Below, piece by piece: positions 48,723 to 53,959 of a DNA stretch of 64,000 bases. The translations under genes and the position numbers were made by a program. The DNA comes from Arthrobacter globiformis NBRC 12137 (GTDB taxonomy: Bacteria; Actinomycetota; Actinomycetes; Actinomycetales; Micrococcaceae): assembly GCF_000238915.1 (NCBI RefSeq), contig NZ_BAEG01000064.1, positions 1 to 64,000 of the forward strand. The letters run 5' to 3'. The notes below the pieces were generated by a model, which saw only the letters and a list, made by a program, of their open reading frames with translations, had not been told where the DNA came from and ran no database searches. Position 1 is the stretch's first letter. The number at the start of each line of letters is the position of its first letter.

Positions 48723-49712
48723 ATGCAGGAAGCAGCAGGGTGCTGTACTCCCGCCCGCAGTGCTTCCGGACGCCCAGAGCTTGGGCTTGTCAGCATAAGC
48801 GACGCCCCGCAGGCCCGGACCGAAGCGGCTATCCCTGCCGGAACGTTCCTGATGGGAGATGCGTTCGATGAGGGCTATCCGGCGGATGGCGAGACCCCCG
48901 TTCATCAGGTGACCCTCCGCGGGTTTCGCATTGACACCACCGCAGTCACCAATCAACAGTTCGCTGCGTTTGTTGACTCGACCGGCTACCGCACCGAAGC
49001 GGAACTGTTCGGGTCCTCCGCAGTCTTCCACCTCTTGGCGCAGGCCGACAAGAAAGATGTGCTCGGCGTGGCCGCGGGCACTCCGTGGTGGCTGAACGTC
49101 CGCGGCGCTGACTGGGCGCACCCCGCAGGTCCGAAGTCAGGGTGGTCCGACTCCAGCGACCATCCCGTCGTCCACGTCTCCCACAACGATGCCCTGGCGT
49201 ACTGCAGGTGGGCGGGCCGCCGACTCCCGACGGAGGCTGAATGGGAATACGCGGGGAGAGGCGGCCTTGCGGGGCAGCGCTACCCCTGGGGCAACGAACT
49301 GCTGGGTGACGGCGGTAAGCACCTGTGCAACATCTGGCAAGGCACGTTCCCTCGGGCGAACACCCGGGACGACGGCCACCTGGGGACGGCGCCTGTGAAG
49401 TCCTTTCCCCCGAACGGATACGGCCTCTATGAGGTCGGCGGAAATGTCTGGGAGTGGTGCTCGGACTGGTTCCTGCCCAAGTACTACCGCAACTCCCCGG
49501 CGAGCTCCCCGCAGGGGCCCACCATCGGTTCAGGCCGGGTCATGCGGGGAGGTTCCTACCTCTGCCATGACTCGTACTGCAACCGCTACCGCGTGGCCGC
49601 GCGGAGTTCGAACACACCCGAGTCCTCCAGCGGAAACACTGGTTTCCGTACCGTGGCGCTGGAAAGTCCGACGGCGGCGGATGCGGTCCCGCATGAACGG
49701 CACCACCGATGA
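48723..49712 (+). CDS. Formylglycine-generating enzyme (sulfatase-activating)
   Basis: 329 residues from ATG 48723 with GGGAGGG upstream. N-terminal FGE landmarks: IPAGTFLMGDAFDEGYPADG, FRIDTTAVTNQQFAAFVDST; then LPTEAEWEYAGRGGLAGQRY, and at the C-terminus RVMRGGSYLCHDSYCNRYRV. Cys281 and Cys286 have the same spacing as the copper-binding active Cys336/Cys341 pair of human FGE, so this is a true FGE rather than a related C-type lectin-like protein. It oxidises the Cys of CxPSR sulfatase motifs to formylglycine using O2. The partner is the arylsulfatase encoded at 42401-44059. Confidence 0.95.
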   Translation: MQEAAGCCTPARSASGRPELGLVSISDAPQARTEAAIPAGTFLMGDAFDEGYPADGETPVHQVTLRGFRIDTTAVTNQQFAAFVDSTGYRTEAELFGSSAVFHLLAQADKKDVLGVAAGTPWWLNVRGADWAHPAGPKSGWSDSSDHPVVHVSHNDALAYCRWAGRRLPTEAEWEYAGRGGLAGQRYPWGNELLGDGGKHLCNIWQGTFPRANTRDDGHLGTAPVKSFPPNGYGLYEVGGNVWEWCSDWFLPKYYRNSPASSPQGPTIGSGRVMRGGSYLCHDSYCNRYRVAARSSNTPESSSGNTGFRTVALESPTAADAVPHERHHR

Positions 49713-50065
49713 GGGAACCGGAGTGGCGGCAGCGGGGATCGGCCCCCGATTACCGGTTCTCGCTCGCCAACGAGCGGACATTCCTCGCCTGGATCCGGAC
49801 ATCACTGGCCATCCTCGCCGGGGCAGTGGCAATAGACCAGCTCACGCCCGACATCGCTCCGGCGCCGGTGCGCATCGGTCTCTGTGTCATGCTCGCCATC
49901 GTAGGCGCGGTGCTGGCCGGCCAGGCCTACGCCCGGTGGTCGGCCCAGGAACAGGCCATGCGCCAGGAGCGCGAGCTTCCACATTCCTGGCTGCTCATCG
50001 GCATGACCATCACCGTGGCATCAGCAGCCGCCGTCTTCTCCGTGCTTATCCTCCTGGCAGGCTGA
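49709..50065 (+). CDS. DUF202 / YidH family membrane protein (first of two)
   Basis: 118 residues, start overlapping the FGE stop (ATGA). It has the DUF202 signature YRFSLANERTFLAWIRTSLA at the beginning, three hydrophobic segments (LAILAGAVAIDQL, IGLCVMLAIVGAVLAGQAY, LLIGMTITVASAAAVFSVLI) and a charged loop (AQEQAMRQERELPHS). YidH-type proteins have no established function. Translational coupling to FGE in the same operon is notable. Confidence 0.88.
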   Translation: MREPEWRQRGSAPDYRFSLANERTFLAWIRTSLAILAGAVAIDQLTPDIAPAPVRIGLCVMLAIVGAVLAGQAYARWSAQEQAMRQERELPHSWLLIGMTITVASAAAVFSVLILLAG

Positions 50066-50068
50066 AAC

Positions 50069-50416
50069 GTGGCAGGGAGCGCAAGCAGGGACCCCGGCCT
50101 GCAGCCGGAACGGACGCTCCTCTCCTGGCGGCGCACCATCCTTACCCTCATCATCACGGACGTCCTCATCTGGCGGGCATGGCTGACGGCTTCCCCGGGC
50201 GAAGCAGCGGCACGCTCTGAAGGCCTTGGCATCGCAGCTGGCGTGGCCTCCCTGGCCACTGTCGCGCTCACAGTCTGCATACTCAGCCGCGCGCTCCAGT
50301 TACGAGGCTCCGCCCAGGCGCCTCCAGCAATCCTGATGAAGACAACCTCGGCAGCGTTGCTTGCCCTTGCTGCCGCCGTCGTTTGCTCCATCATCATGTC
50401 CGCGCTTCCGCGCTAG
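50069..50416 (+). CDS. DUF202 family membrane protein (second of two)
   Basis: 115 residues from GTG 50069, 3 bp after the preceding stop. The start reads GLQPERTLLSWRRTILTLII, the PERTxLSWxRT variant of the DUF202 signature, followed by segments GIAAGVASLATVALTVCILS and TTSAALLALAAAVVCSIIMS. It pairs with the first DUF202 protein and probably forms a hetero-oligomer. It may be transcribed with FGE and ends 72 bp before the arsR start. Confidence 0.85.
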   Translation: MAGSASRDPGLQPERTLLSWRRTILTLIITDVLIWRAWLTASPGEAAARSEGLGIAAGVASLATVALTVCILSRALQLRGSAQAPPAILMKTTSAALLALAAAVVCSIIMSALPR

Positions 50417-50454
50417 GGCAAAAGGCGCCGGCGTCAGTGGTTCTTCTTGACCAT

Positions 50455-50492
50455 GACATAGATAGGTGTGAATATTTACATGTGTCTATGTC
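50455..50492. promoter_or_regulatory. ArsR operator overlapping the arsR start codon
   Basis: GACATAGA (50455-50462) and TCTATGTC (50485-50492) form a perfect 8-bp inverted repeat with a 22-bp AT-rich centre that includes a TATTTA -10-like element. The arsR ATG (50488) lies within the right arm, which implies a leaderless transcript. Confidence 0.7.
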
Positions 50493-50838
50493 TCTGGAAC
50501 TGACCCCCGTCCAGACGGTGGCGTGCTGTTCACCGCTCACCCGGGAACCGCTCTCTGCACCCGAAGCGGAAGGCATCGCTCCGCTGCTGAAAGCGCTGGC
50601 TGATCCGGTGCGGCTGCGGCTGATGTCCCTCGTTGCTTCCCATGAGGGCGGCGAGGCCTGCGTCTGTGATCTGAATGACGCGTTTGAGCTGTCGCAGCCG
50701 ACCATCAGTCACCACCTGAAGCTGCTCCATGAGGTGGGGCTGCTGGACCGCGAAAAGCGGGGGGTGTGGGTGTATTACCGGGCGCGCACCGAGGCTCTGA
50801 CGAACCTCGCTGCCCTGATCGGAGGGCAGGCGAAGTGA
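50488..50838 (+). CDS. arsR: ArsR arsenite-responsive repressor
   Basis: 116 residues from ATG 50488; an upstream in-frame ATG at 50383 would run into the DUF202 gene. The metal site is Cys58 and Cys60 in EACVCDLNDAFELSQPTISH, the classical ArsR Cys-Val-Cys motif on the recognition helix, with an extra Cys13-Cys14 near the N-terminus that could be the third ligand. It should release DNA on binding arsenite. Its start lies in a palindromic operator. Its stop overlaps the aquaporin start (GTGA). Confidence 0.93.
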   Translation: MSLELTPVQTVACCSPLTREPLSAPEAEGIAPLLKALADPVRLRLMSLVASHEGGEACVCDLNDAFELSQPTISHHLKLLHEVGLLDREKRGVWVYYRARTEALTNLAALIGGQAK

Positions 50839-51548
50839 CCAAACTGATGAGGCGGGCCGGTGCGGAGTTCGCGGGCACGGCGTTCCTGGTCATGGCCGTT
50901 GTCGGCTCCGGCGTGATGGCTTCGCGGCTGTCGCCGAACGACGTCGGCCTGCAGCTTTTGCAGAACAGCCTCGCCACGGGTGCCGCCCTGGTGGCGCTGA
51001 TCGTGGCCCTGCAACCGGTTTCGGCCTCGTTCAATCCGGTGGTGACCCTGGCTGAGCGTGCCCTGGGCATGATCGGCACGAGGGCTGCCCTGGCCCTGAT
51101 CGGGGCGCAGTTCCTCGGCGGCCTGGCCGGGACGGTGCTGGCAAACCTGATGTTCGACGTCGGCCCCGTCACCTTCTCCGGCCACGAACGCGCCGGCGCC
51201 GGACTCTGGCTGGGTGAAATCGTGGCCACGGCAGGGCTGCTGCTCGTGGTGTTCGGCACGGTCCGCTCCGGCAGGGCGGACAGGGTGGCGTTCGCCGTCG
51301 GCGGCTACATCACTGCCGCGTACTGGTTCACGAGTTCCACCAGCTTCGCCAATCCCGCCGTGACGGTCGCCCGGACCATCACCGACACGTTTGCCGGGAT
51401 CGCGCCGGCCTCCGCACCCGGCTTCATCCTGGCCCAGCTCCTCGGCGGCGCCGCAGGGTTTGTCCTCGTCCGCCTTCTTTACCCGACGCTCGTCCCCGCC
51501 ACTGCCATGTCCGCCGCGGAAGCGGCCAACCGAAAGGTGCTCTCATGA
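50835..51548 (+). CDS. aqpS: MIP-family aquaglyceroporin (AqpS-like, arsenite channel)
   Basis: 237 residues from GTG 50835, overlapping the arsR stop. Six segments with two half-loops: NPV at 67-69 (SFNPVVTLAE) in place of the first NPA, and NPA at 173-175 (FANPAVTVAR) with the filter Arg180. MIP channels conduct As(OH)3 as a glycerol analogue. Encoded between arsR and arsC it would let arsenite formed inside leave down its gradient, as shown for AqpS of Sinorhizobium. No Acr3 or ArsB pump is in the operon. Confidence 0.9.
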   Translation: MTKLMRRAGAEFAGTAFLVMAVVGSGVMASRLSPNDVGLQLLQNSLATGAALVALIVALQPVSASFNPVVTLAERALGMIGTRAALALIGAQFLGGLAGTVLANLMFDVGPVTFSGHERAGAGLWLGEIVATAGLLLVVFGTVRSGRADRVAFAVGGYITAAYWFTSSTSFANPAVTVARTITDTFAGIAPASAPGFILAQLLGGAAGFVLVRLLYPTLVPATAMSAAEAANRKVLS

Positions 51549-51955
51549 CCGGGAAGCCCTCCGTCCTGTTCGTCTGTGTCCACAACGCCGGCCGCTCCCA
51601 GATGGCCGCCGCGTTCCTGACCACCCTGTCCCGGGGTGAAATCGAAGTCCGCTCCGCCGGGTCCCAGCCGGCGGACAAGGTTAACCCGGCCGCCGTAGAC
51701 GCCATGGCCGAGGTGGGCATCGACATGTCAGCAGAGATTCCGAAGGTCCTCACCACCGAAGCCGTGAAGGAATCCGACGTCGTCATCACCATGGGCTGCG
51801 GCGACGAGTGCCCGTACTTCCCCGGCAAGCGCTACGAGGACTGGGTCCTGGAGGATCCGGCCGGCAAGGGCGTGGACTCCGTCCGGCCCATCCGCGACGA
51901 AATCAAGACCCGGGTCGAGGCCCTGATCGCCTCCCTGACTCCGGCCTCCGCATAA
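51545..51955 (+). CDS. arsC: Thioredoxin-coupled arsenate reductase
   Basis: 136 residues, ATGA overlap with the aquaporin stop. The phosphate loop is CVHNAGRSQMAA (Cys11 to Arg17), and the resolving cysteines are in MGCGDECPYFPGKRYEDW. It is closely similar to the ArsC-like protein at 8978-9412. It reduces arsenate to arsenite, which the channel then releases. Translation is coupled through arsR, aqpS and arsC. Confidence 0.93.
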   Translation: MTGKPSVLFVCVHNAGRSQMAAAFLTTLSRGEIEVRSAGSQPADKVNPAAVDAMAEVGIDMSAEIPKVLTTEAVKESDVVITMGCGDECPYFPGKRYEDWVLEDPAGKGVDSVRPIRDEIKTRVEALIASLTPASA

Positions 51956-51985
51956 GCAAACCCAGCAGGGGAGGGGGTGAGCTGA

Positions 51986-52045
51986 ATGAAGAACGGATGC
52001 TGCGGCGACTCCGGTTGCTGCGACGACGACCAGGACTGCTGCTAA
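51986..52045 (+). CDS. 19-residue peptide with three Cys-Cys pairs in the ars operon
   Basis: ATG 51986 to TAA 52045 encodes MKNGCCGDSGCCDDDQDCC: six Cys in three CC pairs and five Asp in 19 residues. A purine-rich ribosome site (AGGGGAGGGGG) lies about 9 nt upstream. It sits in the 175-bp gap between arsC and arsO, on the operon strand. Vicinal thiols are the classical ligand for As(III), so I infer an arsenite-binding or chaperone peptide. It is far below usual gene-calling limits. Support is composition, position and ribosome site; translation is unproven. Confidence 0.7.
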   Translation: MKNGCCGDSGCCDDDQDCC

Positions 52046-52130
52046 CCCGCGCCGGGCCCTGCCGGCCCCACCCGGCCGGCAGGGCCCACCGAAAACAACT
52101 GCACCACCACTACGGCTGAAAGAGGACACC

Positions 52131-53483
52131 ATGGAGTCAGCGAAGAACCTTCCCGTCGCCGTGATCGGTGCAGGCCCTGTGGGCCTGGCCGCCGCGGCCC
52201 ACCTGCTCGAACGCGGCCTCGAACCGCTGATCCTCGAAGCCGGGACCTCGGCGGGCGCCGCCATCGAGCAGTGGCGCCACATCCGGCTGTTCTCACCGTG
52301 GCGGTTCAACATCGACGCCGCCGCCGTCCGCCTCCTCGAAGCCTCGGACTGGGAATCACCCCGCCCCACGGCCCTGCCCTACGGCGGCGAACTCATCGAC
52401 AACTACCTCGCACCCCTGGCCGCGCACCCGGCCATCAGTTCGCGGCTGCAGACCGGCGCCCGCGTCATCGCCGTCACCCGGGCAGGCCTGGACAAAACCC
52501 ACGTCCGGAACCGCGACACCACCCCCTTTGTGGTCCGCGTGGAACACACGGACGGCGAAACCCGCGACCACACCGTGGCAGCGGTCATCGACGCCTCCGG
52601 CACCTGGGCCACCCGGAACCCGCTGGGCACCTCCGGCCTGCCAGCCATCGGCGAAGACGCCGCCGCGGCCCGAATCTCATCTCCGCTGCCCGACGTCATC
52701 GGCAGGGACCGCGCACGCTTCGCCGGCCGCCGTGTGCTCGTGGTCGGCGCCGGACACTCCGCGGCCAACACCCTGATCAACCTCGCCGACCTAGCCAAAG
52801 ACGCCCCGGACACCCGCATCGTGTGGGCCCTCCGCGGCGACTCCGCAGCCAAGGTCTACGGCGGCGGGGACGCTGACGGGCTGCCCGCCCGCGGCCAGCT
52901 CGGCGCGCGCCTGCGCCGCCTCGTCGAGGCAGGCACCATCGAACTCCACACCCGGTTCGGTATCGCTGCCCTGAATACCCTCGACTCTGCTGTGACCGTC
53001 GAAGCCGTTGACGGGCGCACCCTGAAGGCCGACATCGTAGTGCCCTGCACCGGCTTCCGCCCGGACCTGGACATCCTGCGCGAACTGCGGCTCAACTTGG
53101 ACCCCGCCGTTGAAGCGCCGGTGGACCTCGGCCCGCTGATCGACCCCGAATTCCACTCCTGCGGCACCGTCCCGCCGCACGGCGCGAAACTCCTCGCCCA
53201 CCCGGAGAAGGACTTCTACATTGTCGGCATGAAGTCCTACGGCAGGGCACCGACCTTCCTGCTGGCCACCGGCTACGAGCAGGTCCGCTCCGTCGCCGCG
53301 GCCCTTGCCGGGGACCGCGAAGCCGCGGACACCGTGCACCTGGCACTCCCCGAAACCGGCGTCTGCTCCACCGACGCCGGCACCAGCTGCGACATCCCCG
53401 AACCGGTGCTGGTCGGCTTCCCCACCGGACTGACCCACAACCGTTCCGGCGGCAACCTCACAAAGGAGACAACGCACTCATGA
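52131..53483 (+). CDS. arsO: ArsO-like flavin-dependent monooxygenase
   Basis: 450 residues. The FAD motif is [20 protein letters not shown] and the NADPH motif [20 protein letters not shown], the two-dinucleotide layout of flavin monooxygenases. It has SFW-like [13 protein letters not shown] and a Cys-containing tail ([14 protein letters not shown]). ArsO genes occur in actinobacterial ars clusters (arsRBOCT type); their exact reaction is unclear and oxidation of arsenite or organoarsenicals has been proposed. Its stop overlaps the next arsC start (ATGA). Confidence 0.85.
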
Positions 53484-53908
53484 CCCAGGACGCCACGCCC
53501 AAGACCCCGTCCGTGCTGTTCGTCTGCAGCAAGAACGGCGGCAAATCCCAGCTCGCCGCCGGCCTGATGAACCAGCTGGCCGCTGGGGCCGTAAAGGTCT
53601 TCTCTGCCGGCACCAAACCCGGCACGTCCCTCAACCCGCAGGCCGTTGACTCCCTGACCGAACTCGGCATCGACATCACCGGCGAACACCCCAAACCGGT
53701 GACGGATGCGGTCTTGGACTCCGTCGACGCCGTCGTCGTCCTTGGCACCGAGGCGAAGCTCGAACCGCGCGGAGGGACCCGCTTCGAGTTCTCGGAAACG
53801 GACGAACCCTCCGAACGCGGTATCGAGGGCATGGAACGCATGCGCCTGGTCCGGGACGACATCGAGGCCCGGGTCCAGAAGCTCTATACGGAGCTCACCG
53901 GGGACTAA
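53480..53908 (+). CDS. arsC: Mycothiol-type arsenate reductase (ArsC1-like)
   Basis: 142 residues. The loop reads [17 protein letters not shown], in which the usual Arg of CX5R is Lys and the NGGKSQ signature matches Corynebacterium arsenate-mycothiol transferases. It lacks the additional cysteines of thioredoxin-type ArsC. Such enzymes form an arseno-mycothiol adduct that mycoredoxin reduces. Its presence with a thioredoxin-type ArsC gives the operon two independent reduction routes. The start overlaps the arsO stop (ATGA). Confidence 0.88.
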
Positions 53909-53959
53909 CAGTGGCAGCCCCGGCGCTGTCACGGACGGGTTTTTGGTTTGGCAGGTGCC

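Follow-up and report, generated by a model that had tools for sequence, protein, structure and literature searches.

The arsenic operon and its micro-ORF

The window analysed here, i.e. the whole stretch of 64,000 nucleotides of Arthrobacter globiformis NBRC 12137 (contig NZ_BAEG01000064.1), carries an ars operon whose features are collected in table 1. The micro-ORF under study starts 30 nt past the arsC stop codon and is separated by 85 nt from the start of an ArsO-like flavoprotein gene 3' of it; by translation of the window, it encodes 19 residues followed by a stop codon.

Table 1. Positions in the window of the ars operon genes and associated elements, and the basis of each assignment.
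Feature	Position	Strand	Basis
Candidate ArsR operator, inverted repeat GACATAGA (50455-50462) / TCTATGTC (50485-50492), overlapping the arsR start	50455..50492		sequence
arsR, ArsR/SmtB-type repressor	50488..50838	+	Pfam HTH_5 4.4e-15; NCBIfam HTH_metalloreg 93 bits, cut-off 55
MIP-family channel, aquaporin-like, GTG start	50835..51548	+	Pfam MIP 4.3e-18
arsC, arsenate reductase, low-molecular-weight phosphatase fold	51545..51955	+	Pfam LMWPc 1.3e-22
Ribosome-binding site GGAGGGGG, Shine-Dalgarno-like	51970-51977	+	sequence; similar purine-rich sites 5' of homologues
Micro-ORF MKNGCCGDSGCCDDDQDCC	51986..52045	+	translation, conservation, chance simulation, genus census
GC hairpin, 14 bp, 8 nt past the micro-ORF stop codon, without U run	52054..52087	+	fold
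ArsO-like flavoprotein gene	52131..53483	+	Pfam Pyr_redox_3 4.2e-16
Second arsC-like gene, LMWPc fold	53480..53908	+	Pfam LMWPc 1.8e-14

The channel gene overlaps both arsR and arsC by 4 nt; its product scores 65 bits against the NCBIfam MIP model, under the cut-off of 171, and the best NCBIfam arsenate-reductase models score ArsC under their cut-offs. The inverted repeat at the arsR start could, from its sequence, be the site at which ArsR acts. The flavoprotein gives matches to Pfam Pyr_redox_3 and Pyr_redox_2 that exceed their cut-offs, and 63 bits against the ArsO equivalog model NF040505, the cut-off of which (425) it does not reach; the label 'arsO' is therefore loose, and ArsO-like is preferred. 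A preliminary description of this DNA had placed a 19-residue peptide with six Cys inside the arsenic operon, between arsC and arsO: the peptide is indeed there and belongs to a conserved gene, and its ribosome site, three CC pairs and position 3' of arsC all stand, the amendment being that its downstream neighbour is only ArsO-like.

The region 51986-52130 folds with -59.6 kcal/mol (z -3.25), and its hairpin is a candidate for a partial terminator or mRNA stabiliser, or for an attenuator under a rival reading discussed below. No RNA family could be assigned to the locus, a search of Rfam over 50400-53950 giving nothing at E up to 1.

Two side observations concern the neighbouring genes. In the second arsC-like protein the motif CSKNGGKS stands for the CVHNAGRS of ArsC, so that lysine occupies the position of the P-loop arginine and the activity may differ. 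Just 5' of the operon and on the same strand (48723-50416) lie a gene for a formylglycine-generating-enzyme-like protein (Pfam FGE-sulfatase 6.2e-84) and, after it, two genes for DUF202 membrane proteins.

Distribution in the genus and the family

The census covered 150 genomes of the genus, in 123 of which 130 places with an ArsO-like gene were found; all 130 (109 loci, L085-L193, plus 21 fetched earlier) were examined under the rule that a micro-ORF has 12-45 aa, at least four Cys, at least two CC pairs and CC or CS at its end. A CC-pair micro-ORF lies directly 5' of the ArsO-like gene at 57 of the 130 places (42 of the 109 and 15 of the 21), and the conserved peptide that the preliminary description suggested looking for at this position in relatives thus exists. 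The micro-ORF is nonetheless accessory, since 73 of the 130 places lack it; in a low-identity group of ArsO-like genes it was found at 1 of 20 places (L187). With two genomes carrying two copies each and a further one (G312) having a copy without an ArsO-like gene, the micro-ORF is present in 56 of the 150 genomes.

The spacer 5' of the ArsO-like gene measures 146-267 nt at the 42 loci of L085-L193 that carry the micro-ORF, and 6-124 nt at the 62 loci with a measured spacer that do not, except for three of 151, 155 and 183 nt; the spacer of 183 nt contains a micro-ORF copy that has lost its stop. At L128 (the same place as L060) the stop is replaced by TGG, and at L142 only the ribosome site and the start remain, beside a hairpin. 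Both look like decaying copies, i.e. cases of loss of the micro-ORF.

In a family-wide search of 295 genomes the micro-ORF was found just 5' of 6 of the first 30 ArsO-like loci, and at least one copy, that of G239, comes from a different genus within the family. A pattern scan of genome contigs gave 17 matches, two out of frame and 15 in frame, the latter coming without exception from records named Arthrobacter or Pseudarthrobacter; one of them (L060) lacks the stop. A profile search of the 150 genus genomes recovered 16 true copies, and its tally was not used as a census because it missed the window's own genome and many copies of subfamily I; three of its weak matches (L045, L046 and L049) proved not to be micro-ORFs of the CC-pair kind. 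Finally, a tblastn search for plasmid copies with a 20-aa homologue gave no match, a query so short having little power.

In 33 contexts inspected, the micro-ORF lies 3' of arsC or of a thioredoxin reductase gene, and its operon has a channel gene, acr3 or neither in view. In G009 the gene order is arsR, channel, micro-ORF, ArsO-like gene, arsC and reductase.

Sequence of the peptide and selection

The pooled set comprises 75 loci of the Arthrobacter/Pseudarthrobacter group, some places having been fetched twice, and reduces to 63 different nucleotide sequences, which encode 59 distinct peptides. These are 17-31 aa long (15-31 aa when the distant loci described below are included) and contain 5-7 Cys, exactly six in 40 of the 59, with at least three CC pairs in 52. 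A CC pair occupies residues 5-6 in 56 of the 59 peptides and forms the C-terminal end in 58, and this conservation of the first pair, which lies 40-80 nt from the stop, equals that of the last. All 59 are acidic (D+E minus K+R at least 2); overall, Cys makes up 32 per cent of the residues and K/R/H about 1 per cent. The frame is kept up to stop codons of all three kinds (TAA 29, TGA 26, TAG 8), and Cys is encoded by TGC 380 times and by TGT nine times.

Codon changes were counted on minimum spanning trees built on equal-length groups, the edges of which are less than a full model. The changes at Cys codons, four of them synonymous and two non-synonymous, give a ratio of about 0.11; for all codons, 51 silent and 101 non-silent changes give a site-corrected ratio of about 0.58, and codons at which either of the compared residues is D or E reach 0.83. 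Of 50 single-base replacements at non-Cys codons, 42 remain inside the class D, E, G, S, T, N and Q, as against 24.9 expected, with the class having been picked after the peptides were seen. The sequence outside the Cys residues thus drifts and yet, as far as these comparisons indicate, is constrained in the kind of residue. The micro-ORF is a conserved gene under constraint and linked to ars, and its product is probably an acidic, unstructured microprotein for which no fold is expected.

Loci outside the class

Patterns of the form M-x3-CC with a (DG/N/S)CC end, which other layouts escape, were run over 396 genomes of the order, 396 of the phylum, 296 of the class, and 4 and 103 of two families. 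The order and class scans returned clean micro-ORFs in the window's own genome and G009 only, and the phylum scan added G871, G1164 and G896. Within families, a clean micro-ORF was found in 2 of 4 genomes for that of G871 and in 6 of 103 for that of G896. Eight further micro-ORFs thus come from two families (f55 and f62) of the same phylum and another class, and each of the eight has an arsR match no more than 1.5 kb away. Under a definition of 'clean' fixed after the first matches, 13 of the 36 loci fetched by the reverse-complement patterns carry a clean micro-ORF; these 13, which represent 10 places, all show an arsenic-gene match within 1.5 kb, and the remaining 23 show none.

Among the eight, MRSGCCDEGCCEPGCC lies 3' of arsI (NF041414, 3.8e-54) and MQLDCCDECGGDDCC 3' of arsC and a MIP channel gene, while MAASCCDESCCPEGCC is divergent from arsR, as are MSGECCKPGSDCCSGDDCC, MRNECCEGCCSTGCCGTGCC, MSGKCCEGCCGGTGCC, MATDCCTSGCCDSDCCSNGCC and MRKACCDCEGCGCGCC; at some of these loci an in-frame ATG also occurs upstream, the start given being that nearest to a ribosome site. 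At four loci (L232-L235) the micro-ORF points away from arsR and runs towards a convergent gene, which encodes a YchF-type GTPase at L232 and L234 (1.4e-31 and 1.6e-32) and gives weaker matches at L233 and L235 (BNR_2 1.3e-7 and AAA_33 1e-8). Without a co-directional next gene, the micro-ORF at these four cannot be the leader of a downstream gene. The other four (L207, L208, L209 and L236) are compatible with a leader, and an M29 peptidase gene (L236) or an aldehyde dehydrogenase gene (L207) follows in the same direction at two of them. Between arsR and the micro-ORF of L232-L235 stand the inverted repeats TTCATCGAT/ATCGATGAA (or part of them), which overlap the arsR start and precede the micro-ORF; such a repeat was not found in the corresponding spacer of L236. 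Judged from sequence and placement, they are likely to form a shared divergent operator. The distant peptides themselves may be convergent rather than homologous.

Relation to known thiol-rich proteins

Named bacterial metallothioneins of the SmtA/MymT type have roughly 50 aa or more. The peptides resemble them in being small and rich in Cys, with CC motifs and few aromatic residues, and in their tie to an ArsR/SmtB-family sensor of metal(loid)s; indeed, the composition by which metallothioneins are recognized (small, Cys-rich, with CC/CXC and little else) is that of the 59 peptides. They differ in their length of 15-31 aa and in their location in ars operons. As two homologues (20 and 26 aa) gave no family match in Pfam and NCBIfam, and metal binding is predicted only, the peptide is not filed as a metallothionein.

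ArsD has about 120 aa, adopts a fold and works with ArsA. The vicinal Cys pairs, the ars operon and the possible role of As(III) carrier recall this metallochaperone, but no fold is expected for the peptide, no ArsA appears among the matched genes, and a domain of about 120 aa cannot be accommodated in the 19 aa of the window or the 15-31 aa of the homologues. In Rhodococcus BCP1, passages of one paper (PMC6514093) place another thiol protein in the same slot just 5' of arsO, namely a DUF2703 protein with a thioredoxin-fold domain and CXXC, where the micro-ORF is found here.

The preliminary description knew of no named ars component of this form. This agrees with the lack of family matches for the two homologues and with the open PubMed Central literature, where no description of such a peptide is found among the matches listed. 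Linkage to arsR or other ars genes recurs at independent loci (57 census places and eight distant ones), as for a component of the ars system.

Proposed function and alternative explanations

As(III) binds two or three thiols. That binding or buffering As(III) is the natural function of the peptide is suggested by this property, and the recurrence of an acidic CC-pair peptide with arsR, in separate lineages and at varied positions, makes the product itself the best explanation of the data. We therefore consider it fairly probable that the micro-ORF encodes a thiol-rich, ArsR-linked microprotein that binds or buffers As(III) and works in the manner of a metallothionein. The micro-ORF would be a translated and selected gene of the ars operon, expressed in the presence of As(III) along with the genes presumed to be under ArsR control. 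The acidic product would offer about six thiols through its three CC pairs and, as a buffer or carrier, hold the As(III) that is made by ArsC or enters the cell, until exit through the channel or pump or handling by the thiol and flavin enzymes of the operon. Of the functions proposed in the preliminary description, that of As(III) thiol buffer or carrier is the best supported (by composition, conservation and linkage to arsR); a channel gate finds no support, since operons that carry the peptide may have an aquaporin-like gene, acr3 or neither of the two nearby. Counted against the As(III)-binding function are the accessory distribution, the frequent replacements of non-Cys residues and a hairpin that is predicted by an attenuator and present in 59 of 63 loci.

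Attenuation is the alternative that survives best, although we regard it as unlikely. The micro-ORF would be a cysteine-responsive leader of the ArsO-like gene and the peptide functionless: depletion of cysteine or low-molecular thiols by As(III) would slow ribosomes at the Cys codons, and this would decide the fate of the hairpin and the expression of the ArsO-like protein. Polycysteine regulatory sORFs of mycobacteria, reportedly treated by Canestrari et al. in 2020, are likewise short Cys-rich ORFs of actinobacterial operons, often located 5' of a hairpin and a gene. Passages on cysteine-rich regulatory sORFs in PMC9094748, PMC9031893 and PMC13236596 provide the precedent, the second stating that these sORFs are leaderless with contiguous Cys codons. 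The present micro-ORF, by contrast, has paired Cys, is led by its own Shine-Dalgarno sequence and is internal to the operon, with genes preceding it. Nearly all genus copies lie just 5' of an ArsO-like gene, and a co-directional downstream gene is present at the 57 census places; against a leader function, no ArsO-like gene follows the peptide at L076, where only an arsC-like remnant comes next, or at L057, where the micro-ORF follows the reductase gene and no ArsO-like match occurs within 6 kb, and at L232-L235 the next gene is convergent.

The hairpins themselves speak on both sides. A strong stem follows the stop, as attenuation predicts, in those 59 of 63 loci (some of which are duplicates), and in 56 of the 59 it starts 4-18 nt past the stop, near enough for a terminating ribosome to mask it. 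The hairpins are, however, of several non-homologous kinds (a GC stem, a palindrome containing CTAGGTAGC, and others); a stem of 7 bp is lacking at L059, L089 and L110, L106 has a weak stem only, and hairpins also occur without the peptide (L103, L127, L131, L141, L161, L165 and others). Furthermore, the first CC pair is too distant to mask the hairpin and is as conserved as the last (56/59 versus 58/59), and the non-Cys residues are constrained in kind. As regards other roles of the hairpin, passages of PMC4562236 on Bacillus CDB3 describe a hairpin, located between ars genes, that reduces the transcript 3' of it, a finding that can be cited for attenuation and that, by analogy, makes a partial terminator reasonable here; with such a terminator, the stronger part of the operon would end with the gene of the peptide.

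A palindrome of about 60 bp, with arms CTAGGTAGC...GCTACCTAG, is repeated in ars spacers of the genus with the micro-ORF or without it: it was seen in the spacers of L103, L127, L131, L141 and L161, and 3' of the micro-ORF in L064, L100, L122, L124 and others, and in some loci it takes the place of the GC hairpin. In the window's own genome, each strand has 27 occurrences of the core CTGCCGG..CCGGCAG as compared with 13 of the reversed control, an enrichment too mild for a firm conclusion on a REP-like origin of the hairpin.

Less probable still, and in our judgement doubtful, is a thiol redox relay, in which the peptide would act as a mini-redoxin between an ArsT-like thioredoxin reductase, ArsC and the flavoprotein, without storing As(III). 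At the 42 positive loci among the 109, the gene directly 5' of the micro-ORF is that of the thioredoxin reductase in 26 (one copy scored, with 381.7 bits against TIGR01292, cut-off 343.45), and the Rhodococcus DUF2703 gene, as the passages of PMC6514093 present it, would offer a CXXC parallel. The reductase is not directly upstream in the remaining 16 (arsC in 15, the channel gene in one), and it is the upstream gene also in 29 of 67 loci without micro-ORF; moreover, the family consensus has no CXXC, and at such a size no fold is expected.

That the peptide binds another soft metal, its ars link being incidental, seems more improbable again. Six thiols and acidic residues would bind Cu(I), Cd(II) or Zn(II), and the ArsI_CadI and ArsR/SmtB families include members for other metals, but all eight distant copies, like the genus copies examined, belong to arsR loci, the majority of which also hold arsC, ArsO-like, acr3 or MIP genes, and no separate metal-ATPase locus was found among the pattern matches. 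Finally, a chance ORF, as 19 unannotated codons might suggest, is contradicted by conservation and simulation and hardly credible, the window holding one ORF that begins with ATG, has 15-36 aa and contains six or more Cys and three or more CC pairs, 100 first-order Markov simulations of the window none, and 59 distinct homologous peptides being known.

Significance

The chances appear to us even that these peptides form an undescribed class of ArsR-controlled arsenic microproteins of 15-31 aa, with repeated CC pairs, distributed over several classes of Actinomycetota and in some lineages encoded by a lone gene opposite arsR, the two sharing the operator that lies between them. If so, no dedicated metal(loid)-binding protein of a bacterial resistance operon would be smaller. 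Were attenuation to prove correct instead, the locus would represent a cysteine switch tied to arsenic, of which we know no earlier case.

The micro-ORF is also a warning that annotation misses genes of this size even inside well-studied operons, and the peptides, if they bind As(III), would be a simple model on which to test minimal binding sequences. If the proposed function is right, a step in the handling of As(III) would have been overlooked because gene finders skip ORFs so small; the arsenic resistance of these bacteria would include a thiol trap of some 20 residues that is genetically encoded, and the intracellular travel of As(III) from ArsC to export would have to be viewed anew in organisms without ArsD.
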